A program made the translations under genes and the position numbers. From Atopobium deltae (GTDB lineage: Bacteria > Actinomycetota > Coriobacteriia > Coriobacteriales > Atopobiaceae): a stretch of 40,634 nt of DNA. Each line of letters opens with the position of its first letter. The stretch's first letter is position 1. Positions 13,194-19,598 of the stretch are shown piece by piece. The notes below the pieces were generated by a model, which had not been told where the DNA came from, made no database searches, and saw nothing but the letters and a program-made list of their open reading frames with translations. Location: positions 1-40,634 of the forward strand of contig NZ_KQ959489.1 of NCBI RefSeq assembly GCF_001552785.1, in the 5' to 3' direction.

Positions 13194-13826
13194 CTATGAC
13201 CTTGATGTATCGTTGGTCATTTCTCGTTTTAAAGAAGAAATAATCGCTTTATACACCTTTTCTTTAAGCTGCGTTGGAAGATTTTTTGTCAACTGATCCG
13301 CATGGTGAAGCTGCTCCTCCGTGGGCTCGAAATCAGTTACAATTTTTTGTATATTTTTGCTCTTTACTTCACTTTTATTAATCTTTTTAGGAATTTTTGA
13401 GAGCTTAAATTGAATGTCAGAAAGCATAAAGCCTGCGTGGGCCAAACGAACAAGATAAATTTCTTTGTTGGTTGTAAAGTCTTGCAGGATTGTATGTTTA
13501 TCGATGTAGACAATAAGTGTTGGATCAACGTTACTGCGCTCGTCTTTTTTAAGGAACAATCCACAGGTATGATTTTTTTCAAACGTTCCATTCACGCTAA
13601 ACCATGCCTTATAGGCTTGTTGAGTTTTTGAAAGGTTTTTAGCGAGTGACGAATCATAAAGATTATTAAGAACCTCTTTAAGAGAACTCTCAGAGGTTTT
13701 TTCGGCGGAGTTGTTTTTACTGATATAGATATCATTATTCACTACGGCAGCATTATTGTTTTTGGTATAAGCATTTCTACTCACTGCGTTGCGCGTCGTT
13801 ATATTATCTGTACGTTTATTCGCCAT
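13194..13826 (-). CDS. dciA: DciA-like protein (DUF721), probable replicative-helicase loader/operator
   Basis: A 210-residue protein with an Asn/Thr-rich, probably disordered N-terminus (first 45 residues), then a DUF721/DciA-type domain: KAWFSVNGTFEKNHTCGLFL, with the W...HT pattern, and a beta-rich LIVYIDKHTILQDFTTNKE followed by a helix reaching FMLSDIQFKLS. DciA proteins help place the DnaB helicase where no DnaC/DnaI exists (family knowledge). A basic C-terminal helix (KNLPTQLKEKVYKAIISSLK) follows. The start overlaps the recF stop by 11 bp, so the two are translationally coupled. Position between recF and gyrB is typical of actinobacteria. Divergence is high, hence moderate confidence in function. 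Confidence 0.78.
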   Translation of the reverse strand: MANKRTDNITTRNAVSRNAYTKNNNAAVVNNDIYISKNNSAEKTSESSLKEVLNNLYDSSLAKNLSKTQQAYKAWFSVNGTFEKNHTCGLFLKKDERSNVDPTLIVYIDKHTILQDFTTNKEIYLVRLAHAGFMLSDIQFKLSKIPKKINKSEVKSKNIQKIVTDFEPTEEQLHHADQLTKNLPTQLKEKVYKAIISSLKREMTNDTSRS

Positions 13827-16023: not shown

Positions 16024-16321
16024 GCGAGATCCCTTTCTTTATTATTATGTATATATCTATAAAACTAACTATAGTAATAATAAGTTTAGTAGAAATGTTA
16101 AAAACTAAACACTTGCACAGGTTAAACGGACAAAAAAGTAACGATTTTTATAAAAAAGTTTTAAACACTCCTTGCAAACGTCCTGCGACAAAACATGTTT
16201 CATCACGATAGGGGTCCTTCTCAACAACGATTGAAAACTTTTAAACAAAGTTTTAAACACCAGTGTTGGAATGTGCTGGTAATCCAACATATTCATACAC
16301 ACCTTTATATAGTGATAAAGC
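16024..16321. other. dnaA-dnaN intergenic region with GTTTTAAACAC repeats
   Basis: An AT-rich 298-nt region. GTTTTAAACAC occurs at 16158-16168 and 16250-16260, with a third near copy CTTTTAAACA at 16238-16247. A near DnaA box TTATCCATT (16323-16331) overlaps the end of dnaA. In many bacteria this interval is part of oriC, but strict DnaA boxes are not seen here. Confidence 0.45.
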
Positions 16322-17914: not shown

Positions 17915-17930
17915 ATGCTCCACCAAAAGC

Positions 17931-17986: not shown

Positions 17987-18056
17987 TGTTGAAAACTCAT
18001 TATAGCAAAGAGGAGCTTGTCGAAAACTTACTATTAAAAACCCATACTGTAGAAAA
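17987..18056 (-). promoter_or_regulatory. DnaA-box-like array (TTTTCNACA x3), candidate oriC part 1
   Basis: On the minus strand TTTTCAACA (17995-17987), TTTTCGACA (18026-18018) and TTTTCTACA (18056-18048) recur as direct repeats at 31- and 30-bp steps, three helical turns. Flanking bases are shared too: AAGTTTTC precedes the second and third. They differ from the E. coli consensus TTATNCACA at positions seen to vary in other lineages, and their even spacing next to dnaA supports DnaA binding. Confidence 0.65.
17999..18026 (-). promoter_or_regulatory. dnaA promoter with extended -10
   Basis: On the minus strand TGCTATAAT gives an extended -10 (TATAAT at 18004-17999, TG at 18007-18006). At 16-nt spacing the -35 would be TTTTCG (18026-18021), inside the second DnaA-box-like repeat; the first repeat lies just downstream at about the transcription start. 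DnaA binding here would block the promoter. Confidence 0.65.
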
Positions 18057-18159: not shown

Positions 18160-19122
18160 TTATGAAATATATGTTTTTCCTAATGCTGTTAACTTTCTTT
18201 TTTGGCCATATTTATACGTAATTCCCAACATATCGAGCTGTTTAAGTTCACGAGACCATGTTGGTTGAGAACCACCAAACGTCTCAACAAGCTCTTTACC
18301 GCCAATAAGTTCATAGGTAGAGAATAACGAGAGAATTTGTTGCCCACGACTACTTAACGTCAGGTCTGCAGAAGTTGCTTTCGACAGAGGCGCACGCCCC
18401 GCGTCGCGAGAACCTTTATCTAAAGATGTGTCAACATCGAGCGTACCAGTTGTAGGTACGTTTTGAGTAGATACTTGAGTGGCTACAGGAGCTTTTGTAG
18501 TGATAGAGGGAGTATTTGTAGCACCACTACTCACAACCGTGGCAGGTTCAGTAGTACTACTACTATGCGGCATGACTGCGCTCTTCTCGTCATCCAATGA
18601 CTTTGTCGAGATAGTAATAATAGTTCCCGATGAAATATTATCATGGATAGATAACGATCCACCTTTATCAAGCATATATTGTTGTGCAATAGGCAAACCA
18701 GATCCGACACCACGAATATAGTGTTTCATCTCGTCATTTGCCGAAGTAGTACCAAACTCAAGCGCCTTTTGTTTTTCTTTGATGCCAGGGCCCTGATCGC
18801 AAAAACGAATGGTATTACCGTTGTCCAAAATTGTGATGGTAGGCTCAATAAAAGCTGCATGAATGTAATTTTCAACAATTTCACGAATGATGGTAAAAGG
18901 GATGGTACCACCCTGTTCGTGAGATAGGCGCGTTACCTCCGCGGTTAATGACGATAAAAAATCACGGATATTATTTGGCTCAACAATAACAACGCGTGGG
19001 GTAACTGCAGGGTCGTCGTACACCGCAATCCTTGCAGGATAAGAAACCTGTGTATCCTTTGTAAATAAATTATGAGATTTTTTATCTTCTTCCTCGACAA
19101 AAGGAAAAAAATCACGCGGCAT
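18160..19122 (-). CDS. Origin-linked GHKL ATPase with C-terminal winged helix (unknown function)
   Basis: A 320-residue protein with a histidine-kinase-like ATPase domain: N-box REIVENYIHAAF (80-91), G1 box DQGPGI (109-114) and G2 box GVGSGLPIA (138-146). There is no dimerisation/phosphoacceptor His domain before it and no membrane segment. A Thr/Ser-rich linker (about 184-250) leads to a C-terminal winged-helix-like domain (about 259-320, RGQQILSLFSTYELIGGKEL, then TWSRELKQLDMLGI). ATG 19122 is preferred to the open frame's TTG at 19170 because AAAGGAG lies 6 nt upstream. It sits between dnaA and rpmH, flanked by DnaA-box-like sites. I do not know a named family; it could be a DNA-binding ATP switch tied to replication or growth state. 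Confidence 0.8.
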   Translation of the reverse strand: MPRDFFPFVEEEDKKSHNLFTKDTQVSYPARIAVYDDPAVTPRVVIVEPNNIRDFLSSLTAEVTRLSHEQGGTIPFTIIREIVENYIHAAFIEPTITILDNGNTIRFCDQGPGIKEKQKALEFGTTSANDEMKHYIRGVGSGLPIAQQYMLDKGGSLSIHDNISSGTIITISTKSLDDEKSAVMPHSSSTTEPATVVSSGATNTPSITTKAPVATQVSTQNVPTTGTLDVDTSLDKGSRDAGRAPLSKATSADLTLSSRGQQILSLFSTYELIGGKELVETFGGSQPTWSRELKQLDMLGITYKYGQKRKLTALGKTYIS

Positions 19123-19463
19123 ACCCAACTCCTTTATCGACAATCTTTCATCGAATGTTGAAAATTTCAAAAATTACTTTCAAGCAAAAGAAAGTTTTCA
19201 ACAGGTGATAAAAACTTGTCAATAACTGTATGAATTTACAGATAAACTCATGAAAGATAATAACATGTAACAAGAATATTTCAGACGATGAAAGAAAGAT
19301 TCCCTAGAATAGCGATAGTGTGAAAAATATTGTGAAAGATCTTTATACAAACATGTGAAAAGAACGCCAGAACAACTCTAGCATTGACAGAAACCTATGC
19401 TATTCCCTACAATTCTAAGGCTTGACAAAGAAATTTAATAACCTGCATTCCAGGAGGAATAAC
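19123..19463. promoter_or_regulatory. Divergent intergenic region with DnaA-box-like sites, candidate oriC part 2
   Basis: A 341-nt AT-rich gap between the minus-strand ATPase gene and plus-strand rpmH. It holds TGTTGAAAA (19156-19164) and its inverse TTTTCAACA (19195-19203), plus TGTGAAAAA (19319-19327), which fits the classical TTWTNCACA consensus on the other strand. Transcription of the replication and ribosomal blocks switches strand here, so the origin may span or include this gap. Confidence 0.5.
19384..19413 (+). promoter_or_regulatory. Promoter of the rpmH-rnpA-yidD-yidC-khpB operon
   Basis: TTGACA (19384-19389), an 18-nt spacer and TACAAT (19408-19413) precede rpmH. A second TTGACA (19422-19427) lacks a matching -10 at the right distance. 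Confidence 0.75.
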
Positions 19464-19598
19464 ATGAAGCGTACGTATCAACCAAACAAGCGTCGTCGTG
19501 CAAAAACGCATGGCTTCCGTGCTCGTATGGCTACAAAAGGCGGTCGCGACGTTTTGTCTCGTCGTCGTGCAAAAGGACGTAAGCGTCTTACGGTGTAA
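19464..19598 (+). CDS. rpmH: 50S ribosomal protein L34
   Basis: A 44-residue, highly basic ribosomal protein: it begins [18 protein letters not shown] and continues [20 protein letters not shown], the universal L34 sequence pattern. AGGAGG lies 6-7 nt before the ATG. First gene of the conserved rpmH-rnpA-yidD-yidC-jag operon running away from the origin. Confidence 0.98.

Follow-up and report, generated by a model that had tools for sequence, protein, structure and literature searches.

The C-terminal and ATPase halves of the protein studied here each have known relatives. Domains with a Glu/Asn N box and complete G boxes are ATP-binding GHKL domains, usually hydrolysing ATP or acting as serine kinases, that dimerise or close on ATP. 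SpoIIAB and RsbW share with our protein this type of N box and the Bergerat fold (Z ~11 over 124 residues), and the sensor histidine kinases CpxA, EnvZ, PhoQ, and HK853 share the HATPase_c fold and the boxes of the ATP site (CpxA-type kinases also match at Z ~11). The winged helices of MarR, OhrR, and MepR have the same fold as residues 252-320 (Z ~12). Both parts are joined in DIP2311 of Corynebacterium diphtheriae, which we take to be a COG2865 protein combining an AlbA_2/Schlafen-like domain with HATPase and HTH domains. This structural-genomics entry (PDB 3lmm) has the closest architecture, an ATPase domain followed by a winged helix, as is the trait of COG2865-like proteins.

Two precedents concern the locus. 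The dciA gene, a conserved member of the dnaA-dnaN-recF-gyrB region, proved to encode a replication factor, the helicase operator (PMC5109545), and is thus an example of a conserved replication-locus gene turning out to have such a function; the protein itself is unrelated to ours, and dciA sits between recF and gyrB. The bipartite origins known from Clostridioides difficile and Bacillus (PMC7561715) have the layout that we find at the loci below.

Domain structure of the protein

The window (the whole 40.6-kb stretch of DNA that was analysed) contains the gene between dnaA, on the same strand, and the divergent rpmH (Table 1). An AlphaFold2 (AF2) model of the product, built with 64 aligned sequences, has two confident domains, at residues ~28-174 and ~256-319, with a disordered linker between them. 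The first has pLDDT values mostly of 85-98, lower in the lid, and its residues 77-172 match HATPase_c in Pfam with E 1.2e-8, better than the cut-off. In each of two models, the ATPase domain is structurally closest to DIP2311 (Z 14.7 and 14.8, ~150 residues). A 257-aa relative is modelled with the same two domains and a short linker, and in Foldseek DIP2311 covers most of the length of this shorter model. In contrast to DIP2311, the window protein has no AlbA_2 match in Pfam and only ~27 residues preceding the ATPase domain, and the two are ~15% identical. The folds are thus already known, and their combination has one structural precedent, DIP2311, in which there is an extra domain.

Table 1. 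Features of the locus in window coordinates
Feature	Position	Strand	Details
GHKL-ATPase/winged-helix protein gene	18160..19122	-	320 aa; ATG 19122, AAAGGAG just 5'
rpmH	19464..19598	+	Divergent neighbour
dnaA	16322..17911	-	ATG 17911, GGTGGAG before it
GHKL (HATPase_c) domain	18601..19041	-	Residues 28-174; Pfam, AF2, and structural matches
N box, E81-x-x-E84-N85-x-x-H88	18859..18882	-	E81, N85, H88 invariant in both alignments
G1 box, D109-Q-G-P-G113	18784..18798	-	D109, G111, G113 invariant
G2 box, G138-V-G-S-G142	18697..18711	-	All three glycines invariant
Disordered Ser/Thr-rich linker	18373..18573	-	Residues 184-250; pLDDT ~44-53; 36% Ser+Thr
Winged-helix domain	18166..18357	-	Residues 256-319 (structural alignment 252-320); pLDDT ~95; MarR/OhrR Z ~12
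Predicted recognition helix	18229..18270	-	Residues 285-298; AF2 model and conservation
rpmH-side gap, putative oriC1	19123..19463		DnaA-box-like sites 19195-19203 (+), 19156-19164 (-), 19134-19142 (+)
Gap to dnaA	17912..18159		Three box-like TTTTC[TGA]ACA sites on one strand, 30-31 bp apart: 18048-18056, 18018-18026, 17987-17995
Extended -10, TGCTATAAT	17999-18007		In front of dnaA, flanked by the three box-like sites
dnaA-dnaN gap, putative oriC2	16024..16321		TTTTTAACA at 16096-16104, beside a DnaA-trio-like run at ~16069-16092

Eleven residues (E81, N85, H88, D109, G111, G113, G124, G138, G140, G142, and G155) are invariant in an alignment of 34 diverse relatives that spans classes, and they remain so when 64 sequences are aligned. 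The domain carries all the marks of the GHKL (Bergerat) superfamily, namely the Mg-binding Asn of the N box, DxGxG, GxGxG, and the Bergerat fold, and as judged from these residues the ATP site is intact. E81 aligns with what we take to be the catalytic Glu of GyrB, MutL, and SpoIIAB. Unlike sensor histidine kinases, the window protein lacks a HisKA domain, a sensor, and a membrane part, and has Glu at N-box position 1. HisKA was not among the families listed in a Pfam scan of 64 family members, with HATPase_c the only match in the window protein; the AF2 model has no room for a DHp domain; and the highest hydropathy over 19 residues is 0.98, so that no membrane anchor is seen.

The likeness to SpoIIAB raises an alternative: Like RsbW and SpoIIAB, the protein could be an anti-sigma or partner-switching kinase, with a STAS protein or a sigma factor as its target. 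Besides the fold match (Z 11) and the Glu/Asn N box, the presence in the same genome of a stand-alone STAS protein without an adjoining kinase agrees with such a role. However, our protein differs from SpoIIAB and RsbW in its C-terminal winged helix; its gene is not among the PF13581 (HATPase_c_2, RsbW-type) matches of its own genome (G000) at E 0.01, whereas a separate STAS-HATPase_c_2 frame (G000:C1:11057-11785) does match this model; and no STAS or sigma gene adjoins, the neighbours being rpmH and dnaA. A further genome, G108, carries the gene, yet the sole STAS match there is part of a transporter-like frame. Weakened by the missing RsbW match, by the frame elsewhere, and by the lack of a stand-alone STAS match in G108, an anti-sigma role seems to us very unlikely. 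The stand-alone STAS protein of the window's genome (106 aa; L225:2672-2992, in G000:C5) is encoded beside tatA/tatC-like genes.

In the model, the C-terminal domain has the helix-turn-helix and wing of a MarR-like winged helix. Pfam winged-helix models match up to 58 of the 64 family members, the window protein by itself giving only a sub-threshold match, and the family profile aligns with solved structures of two kinds, histidine-kinase ATPase domains and, in separate matches, winged-helix proteins. Whereas MarR, OhrR, and MepR have dimerisation helices, the window protein has the winged helix only, joined to a GHKL ATPase. Most distant relatives have SxSTAYRDL in the recognition helix, and the window's own family has SxPTWSREL there; mean pairwise identity of this helix is 53%, compared with 42% for the whole winged helix, and in the aligned sequences it is conserved across phyla.

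An earlier, sequence-only reading of this DNA had described an ATPase domain of the histidine-kinase/anti-sigma fold, a Thr/Ser-rich linker, and a C-terminal winged-helix-like domain, with neither a kinase module nor a membrane anchor. The two domains and the missing modules are borne out by the matches and models above. For the linker the description holds in part: It is disordered and rich in Ser and Thr in the window protein, but its length and composition differ among the family members in the alignment of 34. The same reading knew of no named family of this build at this locus, in agreement with our searches: Pfam, NCBIfam, and PHROG contain no model that names the protein as a whole, and the papers searched (subscription journals and preprints being outside coverage) hold no description of it. 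The protein family, its linkage to dnaA, and its spread appear undescribed in the searchable literature.

The first ten residues, MxRDFYPFVE (window 19093-19122), are kept in the window's own family and not outside it; this decapeptide is possibly a protein-binding peptide.

Linkage to dnaA and layout of the origin

We inspected 155 loci, and in all 143 that show both genes, dnaA follows our gene directly and in the same orientation; the same placement recurs in all of the further loci L156-L185. The same gene is seen in the same place in at least three deep bacterial lineages. Conservation of the position next to dnaA, on which the sequence-only reading had staked its proposal, is thus found across Coriobacteriia and beyond, and its account of the neighbours, rpmH and dnaA, is likewise correct. 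Of 128 loci outside the window's own family, 73 have no more than 50 bp separating the gene from dnaA; within the family the distance is longer. Since this gap is so often short, the gene is usually the first of the dnaA operon, and we regard this as the normal arrangement, while in the window's own family a separate promoter may serve dnaA. In the window, dnaA has an alternative TTG start at 17926, giving a longer form, which we consider less likely.

In five Eggerthellaceae-type loci, all from MAGs (L146, L147, L151, L152, and L155), the gene and dnaA are flipped as a pair with respect to dnaN and/or rpmH, depending on which of the two can be seen, and there the DnaA-box cluster is still 5' of the gene. 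No relocated copy of the gene was seen in the loci inspected. This bears on the possibility that the protein regulates the transcription of a wider or unrelated set of genes, for example according to energy status, and merely shares the dnaA operon. A MarR-like winged helix would be compatible with such a regulon; the lack of relocated copies, and a position before dnaA kept over three phylum-level lineages, argue against it, and we think it improbable. In many loci parA and parB are a few kilobases away, as would suit a segregation or nucleoid protein working near the origin with ParAB. Since parAB adjoin dnaA in many bacteria, while the fixed partner of the gene is dnaA, and nothing was found that points to segregation in particular, we give this explanation almost no weight.

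DnaA boxes are concentrated on both sides of the gene-dnaA pair. Counting TTATCCACA with up to one mismatch at loci outside the window's own family, we find 548 boxes in the rpmH-side gaps (14.6 expected) and 202 in the dnaA-dnaN gaps (6.0 expected); the stretch separating the gene from dnaA has few. Of 93 dnaA-dnaN gaps, 26 contain DnaA-trios (0.4 expected), and none of 155 rpmH-side gaps has any. With trios in the dnaA-dnaN gap and the gene between two box clusters, the origin looks bipartite, and the gene looks to be placed between its two halves. In the window, four of the six TTTTC[ACG]ACA sites fall within the three origin gaps (872 bp together), in accord with the earlier mention of DnaA-box-like sites on both sides of the gene, and the cumulative GC skew has a low plateau at ~9-20 kb.

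This setting lends itself to another explanation, in which the protein acts on DnaA itself: The ATPase domain would contact DnaA, and the winged helix would tether the protein at the origin, so that DnaA assembly is promoted or blocked, with no role in transcription. The strict pairing with dnaA, joint inversion included, and the place of the gene between the two origin halves both fit. On the other hand, the conserved recognition helix speaks for a DNA target of the protein's own, and lineages without the gene retain dnaA. We consider such direct action unlikely; among the remaining rivals we would nevertheless place it first, followed by the broader regulon and then by the anti-sigma role.

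The window's own family departs from other loci in its boxes. The common DnaA box is TTTTCAACA, and in the window gaps and in loci L001-L055 and L186-L204 the box is TTTTCAACA or TTTTCGACA instead of TTTTCCACA; domain IV of DnaA often has GRSHAT[IV], not GRDHTTV. Together, these changes are possibly a shift of DnaA specificity. We also considered whether the recognition helix, DnaA domain IV, and box type vary together; the pattern is suggestive in this family, but A-type boxes occur with ordinary DnaA too, and the idea was set aside. In about 22 of 41 loci of the family (L001-L054), two or three box-like sites ~29-38 bp apart lie between the gene and dnaA.

A search for operators by dyad counting, after masking of DnaA boxes, yielded mainly the rpmH promoter and A-rich words; the only other shared element was CCTTGAAAAC, in some Coriobacteriia. 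It is conserved 404-486 bp upstream of the gene in L056, L087, L088, L090, L091, L102, L108, L109, L126, and L127, and within the oriC1 leader it follows a TGcTAgAAT promoter at a distance of ~50 nt. We regard CCTTGAAAAC as a candidate operator or leader RNA element.

Between recF and gyrB, at the place of dciA, the window also contains an ORF of 210 aa (13194-13826). It has no Pfam match at E 0.01 and is probably a diverged DciA.

Distribution, losses, and conservation

Matches were found in 162 of 170 good genomes of Coriobacteriia, of which four weak ones fell away when the search was repeated with an alignment, leaving ~158 that are real. The gene is not specific to this class. A phylum-wide sample of Actinomycetota has a match in 130 of 301 good genomes, most of the others being without; the phylum of "Armatimonadetes CSP1-3" has the gene in 38 of 43 genomes; and in Bacillota it is present in 15 of 17 genomes of one class, while the phylum to which this class belongs has it in 22 of 199. 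Nearly always there is a single strong match per genome.

Several lineages of Coriobacteriia have rpmH and dnaA adjacent, the rest of the locus being intact and only the gene absent (G192, G045, G055, G064, G161, and G095). Such clean loss indicates that the gene is dispensable there and not universally essential, and together with the many unmatched Actinomycetota it shows that initiation can do without it. Among 17 gene-negative draft genomes checked, dnaA was likewise not found in 10, so absence of the gene in those is uninformative.

Mean pairwise identity is 38.5% for this protein, 34.1% for DnaN, and 46.2% for DnaA (16 representatives), and 32.8% for RecF (10 sequences). The distances of the protein correlate with those of DnaN (r 0.63), a relationship consistent with vertical descent.

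A possible regulator of dnaA

An ATP-binding GHKL domain with an attached winged helix is most simply read as a nucleotide-switched DNA-binding regulator, and the position at dnaA and the origin makes its own operon and the origin the likeliest target. We thus favour, with belief and doubt about evenly weighted, a dnaA-coupled, ATP-switched, dimeric DNA-binding regulator that acts at its own operon and at the origin. The GHKL domain would bind ATP and then dimerise or change shape, as in SpoIIAB or the ATPase domains of GyrB and MutL, and this would fix how far apart two winged helices stand. Binding of the protein within the operon leader/oriC1 would then tune transcription of the operon common to the gene and dnaA in step with the ATP state of the cell; perhaps DnaA assembly at the origin would be tuned by that state too.

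Linkage to dnaA is no proof of control of dnaA. Nevertheless, on the evidence of sequences and models, the gene is a strong candidate for control of dnaA or of the start of replication. More tentatively, and with doubt outweighing belief, the protein may represent an undescribed ancestral kind of initiation regulator shared by several deep lineages: a GHKL ATP sensor joined to a winged helix, made together with DnaA, which would bind between the halves of a bipartite origin and, according to ATP state, gate the expression of dnaA or the loading of DnaA.

To our knowledge, how DnaA is regulated in most bacteria outside a few models is unknown. A single gene, kept before dnaA in Coriobacteriia (gut bacteria), in other classes of Actinomycetota, in the CSP1-3 phylum, and in some Bacillota, and encoding a protein conserved at least as much as DnaN, is a concrete candidate for such regulation, and the lineages that have lost it are natural controls.
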